From positions 1 to 33,657 of the forward strand of contig JALWEI010000024.1 of NCBI GenBank assembly GCA_027014125.1: a stretch of DNA of 33,657 nt, in the 5' to 3' direction. Under the pieces are notes generated by a model. The model did not search any database and was not told where the DNA came from. It saw only the letters and a list, made by a program, of their open reading frames with translations. Positions 115 to 33,657 of the stretch are shown here, piece by piece. Numbering within the stretch: the stretch's first letter is position 1; the number at the start of each line of letters is the position of its first letter. The translations under genes and the position numbers were made by a program. This DNA is from Acidilobaceae archaeon (lineage in GTDB: Archaea; Thermoproteota; Thermoprotei_A; Sulfolobales; Acidilobaceae).

Positions 115-1485
115 CTAGGAGGGAGGCCTCCCTCGAGTATATGCTAGCCTTATCCATGCAGGGGTCGGGTCTGATCCACGCTCTACCTCCCGCCCACACC
201 AACCCTCACACCCCGGCCCCGGGCAGGTGAATGCCCTAGAGACCCTCGCACCCCACGGGAGGGGGGCCATGCCCAGGGCCCTGCCTAGGGCCTCTAGGGC
301 GCTCCTGATCCTCCTCGGCCTAAAGCCATGCAGGAGCCCGTGCTGGGGCCACACCGAGCCCCCCTCCCTTAGCCTCTTCTCGATAAACCTGGAAACCCTC
401 TCCACGGAGGCCCATGCCTCAGGGCCCCGTAGGGCCTCTATCTCGGGGAGGGTTAGGGACTCGACTAGCACGTATGCAACCGCCCTAGAGCCCCCGTCCC
501 AGGAGAAGCCGTGGTGGAGCACCCTGAAGCCCGCCTCCCCCAGCTTGGTTGCAAGGAAGCTGGAGAGCCTTGCAAGCCTGCCCTCAACATCCTGCGGAGG
601 CTTAGTGTACATCGGCCCCTCAAGGCATACTCCCACGGCTGGGGCCCTCGACACTGGTGGCAGGGTGGGCTGGTGGGTGTGGAAGTACCACTCGCCCGGC
701 GCTTCAAGGTAGGTCCTGGCTGCTAGTATGAATGTTGCTAGGCTCCTCATAGTTACAGCGGCCCCCACGTTCCTCCCGGGATCCACGGGGTCTGGGATGA
801 CTAGCGGGGAGTCCCTGTACCTCCTGGCCAATGCCTCCGGGTCACCGGCCCCGTGGGGGTCTATTATGACCGGAGGCCTCCACCTGGAGGCCTCCTCGAG
901 CACGCCTCGGAACCCGTTGTACCCTATGGTTAGGACCTCGGCTAGGTAGCCGGAGAATCCTCCTCGAGCAGTCTCGGCCCCGTAGACCCCTATACCCTTG
1001 AGGAACGACTTGAGTAGCCTAACCTCGTCGGCGAGCCTGGGGTTGATCCTCTCCTTGACCCACCTAGTGTGGAAGGGGGTCCTCTCAACACCCCGGGCCT
1101 GGGAGGGGTCGCTTACAAGCTTGGCGGGCACGATATCGGCCTCCATCCCCATCATGGCCAGGGTCACGTAGGGGTGCTGGCTGTACTTTGATATGACTGG
1201 GAGCCCGTGGAGGCACGTGTATAGCAGGCTCCTTGCCCTCTCCTCTATCCAGGCATCATCGACCCCCTCGAGGAGGAGGAATACGTCTATCTCCCACTTG
1301 TCCGACAGCAGGGTCCCCTTAGCGAAGCTCCCCACCGCCTCAACCCTGCCCCCTACCCCTGCTACTGCCGGGCACGTGGACAGCCTTGTCTGGATTAGTC
1401 CGTAGAGGCGTGTTAGCATTGCAAGCTGGAACTGGGTGGGCCTCAGAGACTCGAGGACCCTATCCTCCACGCTCTCCCGCATCAT
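115..1485 (-). CDS. cca: CCA tRNA nucleotidyltransferase, archaeal class I
   Basis: Adds or repairs the 3'-terminal CCA of tRNAs from CTP and ATP without a nucleic acid template. The nucleotidyltransferase core is near the N-terminus: GSFAKGT at about residues 52-58, then EIDVFLL at 65-71 with the metal-binding E and D, and a third acidic residue in MEADIVPA near 113. This matches the acidic triad of the archaeal class I enzyme. The 456-residue length is usual for the family (about 430-460). The start is ATGATG at 1480-1485; either Met could be used. It lies 8 nt downstream of the thpR stop, so the two are probably co-transcribed; this cca-thpR neighbourhood recurs in archaea and suggests linked RNA 3'-end metabolism. 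Nothing in the sequence looks truncated. Confidence 0.95.
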   Translation of the reverse strand: MMRESVEDRVLESLRPTQFQLAMLTRLYGLIQTRLSTCPAVAGVGGRVEAVGSFAKGTLLSDKWEIDVFLLLEGVDDAWIEERARSLLYTCLHGLPVISKYSQHPYVTLAMMGMEADIVPAKLVSDPSQARGVERTPFHTRWVKERINPRLADEVRLLKSFLKGIGVYGAETARGGFSGYLAEVLTIGYNGFRGVLEEASRWRPPVIIDPHGAGDPEALARRYRDSPLVIPDPVDPGRNVGAAVTMRSLATFILAARTYLEAPGEWYFHTHQPTLPPVSRAPAVGVCLEGPMYTKPPQDVEGRLARLSSFLATKLGEAGFRVLHHGFSWDGGSRAVAYVLVESLTLPEIEALRGPEAWASVERVSRFIEKRLREGGSVWPQHGLLHGFRPRRIRSALEALGRALGMAPLPWGARVSRAFTCPGPGCEGWCGREVERGSDPTPAWIRLAYTRGRPPS

Positions 1486-31122: not shown

Positions 31123-31158
31123 CGTGTATAGATTAAAATATATGAATAATACTATACG

Positions 31159-31168
31159 TATTAAATAC
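31159..31168 (+). promoter_or_regulatory. TATA box of hemerythrin gene
   Basis: TATTAAATAC at the end of an unusually AT-rich block (31127-31170). It predicts transcription start near 31190 and so excludes an upstream in-frame ATG at 31124 in favour of ATG 31205. Confidence 0.55.
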
Positions 31169-31204
31169 ACGGGGCCATTGGGCGGGCCCTGGAGAGCCTG
31201 GGCT

Positions 31205-32104
31205 ATGCTTAGGAGGCTCAGGAGGTGGCTCCTCCTAAGGGATCCAGATCTCAAGTACATAGTCCAGGTAGGGGTAGACAGTATACCGGAGGTGGAGGAC
31301 CCGGTAACCCCAAAGGCAAGCCTACTGGGAGCCGCTAGTAGCAGCTTGGACAGGGCCAGCCTATTCCTAGATAGCGAGGAGGCCCTCAGATACTTCATCC
31401 AGGGGATGGAGGAGAGGGTGGAATACACGGCCAGGCTACTAGGGGCCAAGGGAGGCCTAATACTACTCCTGGCCGCCTCGCCAAGGAAGCTGGAGGGGCC
31501 CTGGCTACTCGTAGTCGAGGGCGAGGAGGGCTGGATCTCGAGGCTCCTGGTATACAACGGGATTGTAACCGCCGCCCAGGCAGTAACCCCCACAGGCCCA
31601 GTCTATGGTAGGAGGGCTCTAAGCCTGATCGAGGACAGCCGCGGAGAGGCCAGGGTCGTGGCGATCAGGCTTAAGAAGAGGCTAGTAGAGTGGGATCCCG
31701 GGAGGCTGAGCGTATATGTCAGGGGAATAGACAGGCAGCACATGTTCCTGGTCGCCAACCTCAACATGCTATACCTAGGCCTGGTGGCGGGCGAGGACAG
31801 GGGCGCCATGGAGGAGGTGCTAGGAAACCTTGGAGAATACACTAGGTTCCACTTCAGGAGCGAGGAGAGGATCATGGACAAGTTCAGCTACCCCGAGGAG
31901 CTATTCTCCAGGCACAGGAGGGAGCACAGCGACTTCGTGGAGAAGGTGACAGGATTCACTGAGAAGTACAAGGCGGGGGAGGCGGAGATAACCCTAGACC
32001 TACTAGGCTTCCTAGCCGCCTGGTTGCAGGGCCACATAGCAGGCACAGACAGGAGGCTGGGCAAGTGGCTCAAGTACGAGGCCAGGGTGCCTATAGTAGA
32101 CTAG
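31205..32104 (+). CDS. Hemerythrin-domain protein with novel N-terminal domain
   Basis: The C-terminal part (about 170-295) is a bacteriohemerythrin-like four-helix bundle that binds O2 at a di-iron site. All seven expected ligands are there: His179 (IDRQHMF), His216 and Glu220 (FHFRSEE), His237 and His241 (HRREH), His277 (GHI) and Asp282. The first 165 residues are a separate alpha/beta domain with charged helices (LDSEEALRYFIQGMEERVEYT) and strands around LILLLAASPR and PWLLVVEGEEG, which I do not recognise. 299 residues from ATG 31205, chosen by the TATA position. Stands alone; its stop shares CTAG with the NikR-like gene. Possible oxygen sensing or storage. Confidence 0.85.
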   Translation: MLRRLRRWLLLRDPDLKYIVQVGVDSIPEVEDPVTPKASLLGAASSSLDRASLFLDSEEALRYFIQGMEERVEYTARLLGAKGGLILLLAASPRKLEGPWLLVVEGEEGWISRLLVYNGIVTAAQAVTPTGPVYGRRALSLIEDSRGEARVVAIRLKKRLVEWDPGRLSVYVRGIDRQHMFLVANLNMLYLGLVAGEDRGAMEEVLGNLGEYTRFHFRSEERIMDKFSYPEELFSRHRREHSDFVEKVTGFTEKYKAGEAEITLDLLGFLAAWLQGHIAGTDRRLGKWLKYEARVPIVD

Positions 32105-32490
32105 CCACCATCCCCGGGGAGGGGTATATACCTGGCCCTGCAACCAGCCTTCTCCAGATCCTGGTGCAGCCTAGTAATCCTGCTGGTATCACCCTCAACA
32201 ACCACGGCCTCCACGCACCTGTCCCCAGTATGGCTGTGGAACCTGGTTGATACTATGTCGCGGTACTCCTCCATAACCCTAGCCAGGGCCTCCTCGGAGC
32301 CGGAGCGGCAGGAGAGGATCATCACCCCGCTACACCTATGCGGCACCAGCAGGTGGCTGTAATCATCGAGGAAGGCCCTCACAGCCTGCTCCACAAGCCT
32401 ACTCCTATCCAGCCCAAGCCTCTCACTGAGCGAGTCCAGCTTGGAGGCAAGGTCCTCGGGCAGGCTAACGCCAAACCTCCTCCTAGCCAC
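32101..32490 (-). CDS. NikR-like ribbon-helix-helix regulator
   Basis: Metal-responsive repressor of the NikR type: an N-terminal ribbon-helix-helix (ARRRFGVSLPEDLASKL) that binds DNA as a dimer, and a C-terminal ACT-like domain. From canonical NikR one expects four ligands (His76, His87, His89, Cys95 of E. coli); here His85, His87 and Cys92 in TRFHSHTGDRCVE match three, with one residue less between His and Cys, while the position of His76 appears to be Glu or absent. The metal may therefore not be nickel. GTG 32490 is preferred because of GGGGTGG just upstream (129 residues). Downstream of, and overlapping by 8 nt, the ABC permease; an autoregulated metal-uptake operon is likely. Confidence 0.82.
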   Translation of the reverse strand: MARRRFGVSLPEDLASKLDSLSERLGLDRSRLVEQAVRAFLDDYSHLLVPHRCSGVMILSCRSGSEEALARVMEEYRDIVSTRFHSHTGDRCVEAVVVEGDTSRITRLHQDLEKAGCRARYIPLPGDGG

Positions 32491-33331
32491 CACGACCACC
32501 CCCTAGGAGCACTAGGCTATAGCCAGCCATCAGTATGAGCCCAGACACAGCGGCCGGGGGGAGGCCAGTAGCGCCGCCCAGGAGCAGGCCCCCCAGGCCT
32601 GCTATGAGCCCTACGAGGCCCCCGGCCAGGGTTGAAGGCCTAACACCCCTGCTCAGCGGCAGCACGAGGGCCCCGGGTATGAGGAGGAGGACATGCTCGA
32701 GTATGAAGCCCACCACCCCGATCAGGCCCACGGTGAGAACGGCTATGAGAGTATAGAGCACGCCATCGTACACCCACACCCTGGCCCCGCTCAGGGCGGC
32801 ATCGTCCCGGTCCACCCCTATATACGCCATAACATCACCGGCCCATAGCATTATCGTGAGCACCGTGAGCCCGAGGGCGAGGACCAGCATGGACTCCCGG
32901 GTGGAGGCGAGGAGTGGGTCCCCGATAATTATACCAGAGACCTGGACGCCCAGGCTAGAGGCAAGGTACAGGCCAGCAACCCCAAGGCTGGCAGTGAACC
33001 CGGCCAGGAGGCTGGCCGCAGTATCGGGATCAACCCCCCGGTAAACGGCGTAACCGGCGGTATAGATGAATGCCAACCCCATGACGAGGCCGGAAACCAC
33101 CGGGTCAAAGCCCCAGGCACCAAGCGTAGCCCCGAGGCTAGCGGCAGCGAGGGCAGCATGAGGCGCAGCCCCGGCCATGAAGAGGAGCCTCCTAGCATGG
33201 AGCAGCGGGCTCAGGGCTCCATACGCCAAGCCAGCCCCAGCCAGGGCCAGGACCCACTCCAAGGGGTAGAGGCTAACCACCGCCCCGGCCAGGGCCACCG
33301 CTGCTAGCGCGAGTACAGCGAGCACCCTCAT
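32483..33331 (-). CDS. ABC-3 family metal permease (ZnuB/MntB-like)
   Basis: Membrane permease of a zinc/manganese/iron-type ABC importer. About eight hydrophobic segments; the conserved FMAGAAPHAALAAASLG corresponds to the F.GDALSHA region of ZnuB, the LEHVLLLIPGALVLPLSRG segment is the coupling region, and GLPPAAVSGLIL the C-terminal helix. 282 residues is normal. ATG 33331 overlaps the ATPase stop as ATGA. A periplasmic-type metal-binding lipoprotein (ZnuA-like) would be expected beyond the right edge. The Zn, Mn, or Ni specificity cannot be read. Confidence 0.9.
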   Translation of the reverse strand: MRVLAVLALAAVALAGAVVSLYPLEWVLALAGAGLAYGALSPLLHARRLLFMAGAAPHAALAAASLGATLGAWGFDPVVSGLVMGLAFIYTAGYAVYRGVDPDTAASLLAGFTASLGVAGLYLASSLGVQVSGIIIGDPLLASTRESMLVLALGLTVLTIMLWAGDVMAYIGVDRDDAALSGARVWVYDGVLYTLIAVLTVGLIGVVGFILEHVLLLIPGALVLPLSRGVRPSTLAGGLVGLIAGLGGLLLGGATGLPPAAVSGLILMAGYSLVLLGGGRGG

Positions 33332-33657
33332 CCGTGGGCACCCTCCTCCCCAGCCAGCACGAGGCCCCTAGTGACGCTGGCCCCGTAGACCCTCTCAAGC
33401 ACCCGCTCCCTAAACACCTCGCCCGGAGGCCCCTGAGCCACCACACCCCTGTCGACTAGAACCATGTACTTGGTGTAGGGTAGGAGCAGGTTGGGCTCGT
33501 GACTAGCAACCACTACAAGCCTGTCCCTTGCCAACCCTGCTATCAGCCTAGCGAGACCCAGCCTCCCGGCAGGGTCTATGTTAGCCAGGGGCTCATCCAT
33601 CACTAGTAGCCTTGGCCCCGGGGCTATAGCACGGGCTATGAAGACCCTCTGGAGGGT
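33328..33657 (-). CDS. ABC transporter ATPase, partial
   Basis: Only the 3' part of an ATP-binding subunit: the frame is open to the window edge and begins with LQRVFIARAI (just after the ABC signature), followed by the Walker B LLVMDEPLANID, the H-loop ASHEPNLLLPYT and the C-terminal end VTRGLVLAGEEG. About 110 residues remain; the Walker A and signature motif lie outside. It would energise the permease encoded downstream (ATGA overlap). Confidence 0.9.
   Translation of the reverse strand, partial: TLQRVFIARAIAPGPRLLVMDEPLANIDPAGRLGLARLIAGLARDRLVVVASHEPNLLLPYTKYMVLVDRGVVAQGPPGEVFRERVLERVYGASVTRGLVLAGEEGAHG

Follow-up and report, generated by a model that had tools for sequence, protein, structure and literature searches.

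The closest described relatives of the regulator examined here are the NikR proteins of P. horikoshii (2bj1) and E. coli (1q5v), in which a ribbon-helix-helix (RHH) domain precedes a NikR_C domain and the nickel ligands are an H-x-H pair, a Cys and a fourth His. The E. coli NikR operator is composed of 6-bp half-sites that lie 22 bp apart. Zinc-dependent repression of znu importer genes is associated with Zur, a regulator with the winged-helix fold of the Fur family, and importers of the ZnuABC and AztABC kinds combine an ABC-3 permease, an ATPase and a PF01297 binding protein. We analyzed a NikR-like gene located beside an ABC-3 permease gene in an Acidilobaceae archaeon (assembly GCA_027014125.1; 1.82 Mb, 47 contigs, 99.8% complete). 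The window, by which we mean the whole stretch of DNA analyzed, is the entire contig C24 (JALWEI010000024.1) with a length of 33,657 nucleotides. The encoded protein lacks the fourth His of NikR and carries a His-x-Cys (HxC) element directly after its RHH domain. Judged from sequences and taken as a single statement, it is likely that proteins of this HxC type are metal-dependent repressors of ZnuABC-type importers that respond to zinc, sense it at the hinge and act through the palindrome TGTGCACA.

The literature searched, which took in few subscription papers, contains no description of such a regulator, of its operator or of NikR control of ABC-3 importers, and none of zinc-uptake control in Thermoproteota; an earlier account may exist elsewhere. 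For about 70 genomes it is now possible to name one clade of regulators together with its DNA site and the importers that it targets. The findings also serve as a caution that a NikR-like gene in these archaea may have a role other than nickel regulation.

The HxC clade and its importer loci

The window regulator keeps the domain order of NikR, with RHH_3 (1.6e-12, 47.6 bits) followed by NikR_C (33.2 bits, cut-off 22), both above cut-off, and HxC proteins probably form the same tetramer. Among Pfam families only those of RHH and NikR_C were matched, unlike Zur, whose Fur-type winged-helix fold was not encountered. Four curated NikR models also matched, with the window protein below every cut-off (40.2/111, 31.7/83, 29/105 and 27.5/175.45 bits). 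The alignment with NikR of P. horikoshii (2bj1, E 4e-7) pairs E77 of the window protein with the His of the QHEY motif; H88, H90 and C95 are present, and four residues separate H90 from C95 versus five in 2bj1, which places the Cys one residue closer. These results agree with the sequence-only reading, in which the His76 equivalent was thought to be missing and the H-x-H pair and Cys to be kept at shortened spacing. Its broader view of a NikR relative with an altered, probably non-nickel site likewise stands, but it overlooked the hinge element, the operator and the breadth of the clade. At the hinge, 2bj1 has Trp in place of H49, Glu in place of H54 and Val in place of C56.

Within the phylum, 398 genomes were searched, and 332 gave matches (E 0.001 or better). 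We aligned 71 proteins, namely those of the window and of locus L031, the best hit of 65 other genomes (E ≤6.3e-17) and four second hits. H54-x-C56 directly follows the RHH domain in 65 of these, none of which has the fourth His of NikR (position 77 is E in 48, D in 9, and another residue or a gap in 8), whereas all six aligned proteins that do have this His lack HxC. Because the two features exclude each other, the changed metal site is not a chance occurrence. Another 30 weaker hits were fetched, and all except L120 lack HxC.

In a tree of 134 NikR-like proteins (72 HxC, 61 with the NikR His and one broken), all 72 HxC proteins fall on one side of a single branch with a Shimodaira–Hasegawa-like approximate likelihood ratio (SH-aLRT) value of 99. 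The tree was obtained by a quick search of 119 columns after the seven ligand columns had been removed, and many of its other forks are open. The possibility that these are decayed NikR genes was rejected because one clade shares the changes and the new residues are invariant. NikR-like proteins of families f14 and f50 (L161-L163 and L167) resemble the HxC type in being NikR family members close to a ZnuA/ABC-3 unit. Unlike HxC proteins, they lie outside the HxC side of the tree, retain the fourth His, have H-x-K for H-x-H and lack HxC; perhaps they represent another change of metal within the NikR family.

The sequence-only reading tied the regulator gene to that of the permease, and the two indeed overlap: the shared stretch is 17 bp when counted from the first GTG and 8 bp if translation starts at residue 4 (32490), the likely start because alignment with relatives points there. 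A single-protein scan of genome_contigs revealed one relative. The binding-protein gene that was anticipated past the right edge of the window was located on contig C9 and is the sole PF01297 match of the genome. The start of C9 encodes the N-terminus of the ATPase on the opposite strand, and the divergent ZnuA gene comes next. Because the ATPase N-terminus reads on the other strand of C9, ZnuA is divergent from the ATPase-permease-regulator unit. The same arrangement occurs in L031, L035 and L036, in all three of which the gene order is complete. Permease, ATPase and PF01297 protein constitute a ZnuABC-type set, which is split between C24 and C9 here and whole in L031 (WAKG01000001, a Desulfurococcales metagenome-assembled genome), where the regulator is 93% identical to that of the window. 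AztB and AztC are the best, albeit weak, matches of this importer, which unlike these proteins scores far below the cut-offs (27.8/280 and 22.2/350 bits).

Of the 64 HxC loci beyond the window, 47 have both an ABC-3 permease and a ZnuA gene; the remaining 17 lack such a set. The 54 importer loci considered below comprise 47 from the 71-protein set and seven from weaker hits (L149-L154 and L157). These seven were fetched, alongside L155 and L156 (which are four-ligand), once the nickel pocket had proved to be missing from L094 and L120. With the window protein included, 55 regulators entered the conservation counts, from which L158-L163 and L167 (NikRs four-ligand or H-x-K) were excluded by hand. 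The regulator gene comes after that of the permease, on its strand, in 54 of 54 importer loci, with an overlap or a gap of at most 114 bp (first-start rule). The divergent gene is that of the ATPase in 31 loci and of ZnuA in 21, all genes lie on one strand in L043, and no ATPase was found in L064. Three His are invariant in the binding proteins (55/55). ZnuA and ABC-3 matches occupy one frame, as a fusion, in L043 (6982-8679), L045 (3430-5175), L052 (5455-7290), L064 (5745-7619) and L068 (651-2363).

Table 1. Features of the regulator locus and of related loci (window positions unless a locus is named)
Feature	Position	Strand	Basis or remark
HxC-type NikR-like regulator	32101-32499	minus	132 codons; RHH_3, RHH_1 and NikR_C matches; in the 72-protein HxC branch
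Codons H49 to C56, proposed hinge metal site (H49, H54, C56)	32332-32355	minus	counts in 55 importer-locus proteins
E77, where NikR has its fourth ligand His	32269-32271	minus	alignment with 2bj1
Codons of H88, H90 and C95, remaining NikR nickel ligands	32215-32238	minus	alignment, conservation
ABC-3 permease of importer	32483-33331	minus	PF00950, 55.4 bits (cut-off 20.1); sole genome match of this protein
Importer ATPase, C-terminal part, gene cut by contig end	33328-33657	minus	ABC ATPase models; N-terminus on contig C9
Operator and ZnuA gene, beyond the window	contig C9 (locus L034): sites 417-424 (TGTGCACG) and 385-392 (CATGCACT); ZnuA 418-1404		
HGATPDEHTWP membrane protein	L229 4313-5272; L231 4196-5125; loci L241-L256	minus (L229, L231)	operator before gene in f1 and f21 genomes

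The operator and its targets

Divergent regions are available for 52 of the 54 importer loci, as L043 and L064 yield none. The palindrome TGTGCACA occurs exactly in 49 of these regions and is also their commonest 8-mer; random stretches of the same length from the same loci contain it in 1.2 cases on average and in 5 at most (200 draws). Two or more sites with no more than one mismatch are present in 46 of the 52. Among 61 spacings between successive sites, 33 are 32-33 bp, 10 are 31 or 34-35 bp, 10 are 41-42 bp and 8 have other values. In the 42 regions with a pair at 31-35 bp, the spacer is 69% A+T compared to 56% around it, and a TATA-like hexamer lies within it in 26. Palindromes upstream of the operon, which the sequence-only reading proposed to look for, are a regular feature of these loci. 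The copy of the window genome on C9 is degenerate, with its two sites 32 bp apart as in L031. Self-symmetric 8-bp palindromes about 32 bp apart differ from the half-site arrangement of the E. coli NikR operator.

A strict form of the paired pattern was sought throughout 80 genomes and found at 35 places in 34 of them, of which 31 are importer promoters, two precede a membrane protein described below and two lie elsewhere. The reversed pattern was found once, and the nine genomes in which every NikR examined is of a non-HxC kind have no strict pair. The two places elsewhere are G267:C1:748732, near a ThiS-like gene and an amino-acid permease, and G067:C1:1591117, with a spacing of 30, near a gene resembling glycyl-tRNA synthetase. 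Both may be chance pairs, about two of which are expected per 80 genomes from letter counts. Exact TGTGCACA is also absent from 12 of 13 fetched regions of non-HxC NikRs near ABC-3/ZnuA genes, including three of the four f14/f50 regions; L161 has one copy.

The operator was also found at importer genes that are not linked to the regulator. G256 and G267 are without an ABC-3 match, and in both an operator pair lies at the start of the gene for an undescribed membrane protein with the motif HGATPDEHTWP. This protein has no Pfam match over cut-off (best LysE 0.012 and NicO 0.23) and no PDB match at E 1. It is present in 17 of 80 genomes tested (five unlinked f1, six f21, G079 among them weakly, and six f4) and in none of the 43 tested genomes with a linked importer. 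The exclusion is incomplete in that G105 and G347 have both this protein and an unlinked ABC-3 gene. The family is flagged as a candidate metal importer.

Seventeen importer units from 16 genomes with unlinked HxC genes were examined, ten of them HGATPDEH and seven ABC-3; this count excludes G079, whose transporter match is only weak, and the ABC-3 gene of G347, beside which no ATPase was found. In 15 of the 17 units a pair lies near the start, defined as one site with at most one mismatch and another with at most two, 30-45 bp apart; most spacings are 31-33 or 43. Random windows of the unlinked loci had such a pair in 0.7 cases on average and in no more than 4 (300 draws). In the unlinked f1 loci L038, L039 and L049 the HxC gene is preceded by a short gene that we take to resemble DtxR-type winged-helix regulators.

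Computation supports the clade, its residues, the gene order, the operator and the link between operator and importer, and the clade, operator and targets are well supported. That proteins of the HxC clade act at importer promoters by way of TGTGCACA is very probable. The link between motif and protein is one of co-occurrence, which would also suit a site belonging to another regulator and an HxC protein with some other task. Such an arrangement is highly improbable: in HxC genomes the motif is also found at unlinked importers, it is missing before the HGATPDEH orthologues of six f4 genomes (6/6) in which the NikRs seen (L129, L132, L135, L138, L140 and L142) are all four-ligand, and the predicted DNA-reading strand R8-x-G10-x-S12 is nearly invariant in HxC proteins (53, 54 and 54 of 55 importer-locus proteins). 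Directly before the HGATPDEH gene, the six f4 orthologues (L244, L245, L246, L249, L254 and L256) instead carry a GGGTAACCC-like palindrome, which is probably the site of another regulator.

The metal site and the metal

In the 55 importer-locus proteins, H54 and C56 are present in 55 each and H49 in 52, compared with 47, 46 and 47 for H88, H90 and C95. Both His of the H-x-H pair and the Cys are lost from eight regulators (L094, L149-L154 and L157), which come from genera g25, g9 and g21 of family f2, and in five of these that were scanned NikR_C was not found by Pfam. All eight keep H49, H54 and C56, and all eight loci have an operator pair. Because members without the pocket keep the three hinge residues, we place the working metal site there, and we favor, with some caution, the hinge residues H49, H54 and C56 as the metal-sensing site. 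Four-ligand NikR, HxC with a remnant nickel pocket and HxC alone form a natural series in which to ask how a sensor changes its metal.

The same regulator and operator could instead sense metal in the remnant pocket, formed by H88, H90 and C95 with E77, and use H49, H54 and C56 structurally. Position 77 is acidic (E or D) in 57 of 65 HxC proteins and could provide a ligand, and about 46 of 55 importer-locus proteins retain the H-x-H pair and Cys. The eight regulators that share the operator and the hinge residues have none of the three pocket residues, however, and E/D77 is mostly gone from them as well, making pocket sensing unlikely. For the same reason E77 is not favored as the main new ligand.

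Zinc is the probable metal of the regulator, a view that draws on the ZnuA/ABC-3 partners, on the three invariant His of the binding proteins and on the His and Cys candidate ligands of the regulator itself. ABC-3 importers as a family carry zinc, manganese or iron, so the regulator might respond to manganese or iron and control an importer of that kind. Manganese sites usually hold carboxylates. The ligand candidates in regulator and binding protein suit zinc better, and we consider a manganese or iron system quite unlikely.

Several observations count against a zinc-responsive repressor that senses at its hinge. H49, H54 and C56 could form a structural site, metal sensing might be lost in the eight regulators that lack a nickel pocket, and an AlphaFold model built from the window and L031 sequences (mean predicted local distance difference test score 67.1) is too poor to place the hinge site. 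In 23 of the 54 genomes with an HxC importer locus, that of the window included, no strict operator pair was found at the importer, and 15 of 17 unlinked HxC genomes have no match to it; many of the genomes negative by this pattern carry degenerate or differently spaced sites. The importer units of G129 and G141 show no operator site. Finally, PF00374 is matched in 47 of 53 importer-locus genomes, and four-ligand NikRs lie beside ABC-3/ZnuA genes in L158-L160.

The last two observations, together with NikR ancestry and the retention of three of the four nickel ligands, would fit a regulator that responds to nickel through an altered set of ligands and an importer that carries nickel. PF00374, the [NiFe]-hydrogenase family, also catches complex I subunits. 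In contrast to a NikR linked to nickel importers or nickel enzymes, the window regulator stands beside ABC-3 and ZnuA genes in a genome where neither PF00374, the one nickel-enzyme family searched for, nor CbiM was matched, and five of the six importer-locus genomes without a PF00374 match belong to the family of the window. A search of the 53 genomes for four-ligand NikR led to 30 examined loci, one per genome, and four further matches that are unclassified. All four nickel ligands and no HxC are found in 29 of these 30 second copies, so an intact four-ligand NikR coexists with the HxC regulator in at least 29 of 53 genomes. The loss of the pocket from eight members also speaks against nickel. 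In passages of PMC2667541, the only Ni/Co transporters named as detected in archaea are Cbi/NikMNQO, NikABCDE and NiCoT, none of which is of the ABC-3 family. The suggestion of the sequence-only reading that the importer may carry nickel is thus unsupported for the window, and we put a nickel system low, as a very improbable alternative.

An ABC-3/ZnuA partner alone does not fix the metal, because four-ligand NikRs also adjoin such genes, as do the H-x-K NikRs of L161-L163 and L167; L158-L160 may hold nickel-carrying ABC-3 importers or reflect a further functional change. ABC-3 and ATPase matches are also found near the four-ligand NikR locus L176. In genome G036 the second copy (L182), the thirtieth of those examined, is a four-ligand NikR broken by an in-frame stop, and its HxC regulator and importer locus (L054) look intact; the single PF00374 match of this genome is marginal (6.9e-4).

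The HxC regulator is best read as a Zur analogue with a relocated metal site, for which we infer a tetramer, zinc, hinge sensing and repression rather than activation. As far as the sampled Thermoproteota show, the HxC type would have arisen once within the NikR family. The RHH heads of a NikR-type tetramer would bind paired TGTGCACA palindromes over the promoter, separated as a rule by about three helical turns and in some cases by about four, and the promoter-bound repressor would block transcription. Zinc would occupy a new site in the hinge, H49-x4-H54-x-C56, perhaps with an acidic residue or His at 45/46, or a different chain, to complete it, and would thereby hold the heads in place against the core. 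Most members keep the old nickel pocket, now lacking the fourth His, but would be able to do without it. When zinc is scarce, the repressor would release DNA and the importer would be made. The chances are about even that metal sensing moved from the NikR nickel pocket to the hinge His-Cys site, that some lineages dropped the pocket, and that the regulator and its operator also gained control of an undescribed membrane transporter, which replaces the linked ABC-3 importer elsewhere.

Neighbouring genes

The convergent neighbour of the regulator in the window (31124-32104, plus strand) encodes a protein with a C-terminal bacteriohemerythrin domain (residues 188-317), the first 190 residues of which have no Pfam match. 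A gene of this kind also adjoins the regulator in L031. Beside ZnuA on C9 (L034 1401-3942) are genes that we take to resemble Cas4 and Cas1 of CRISPR adaptation.

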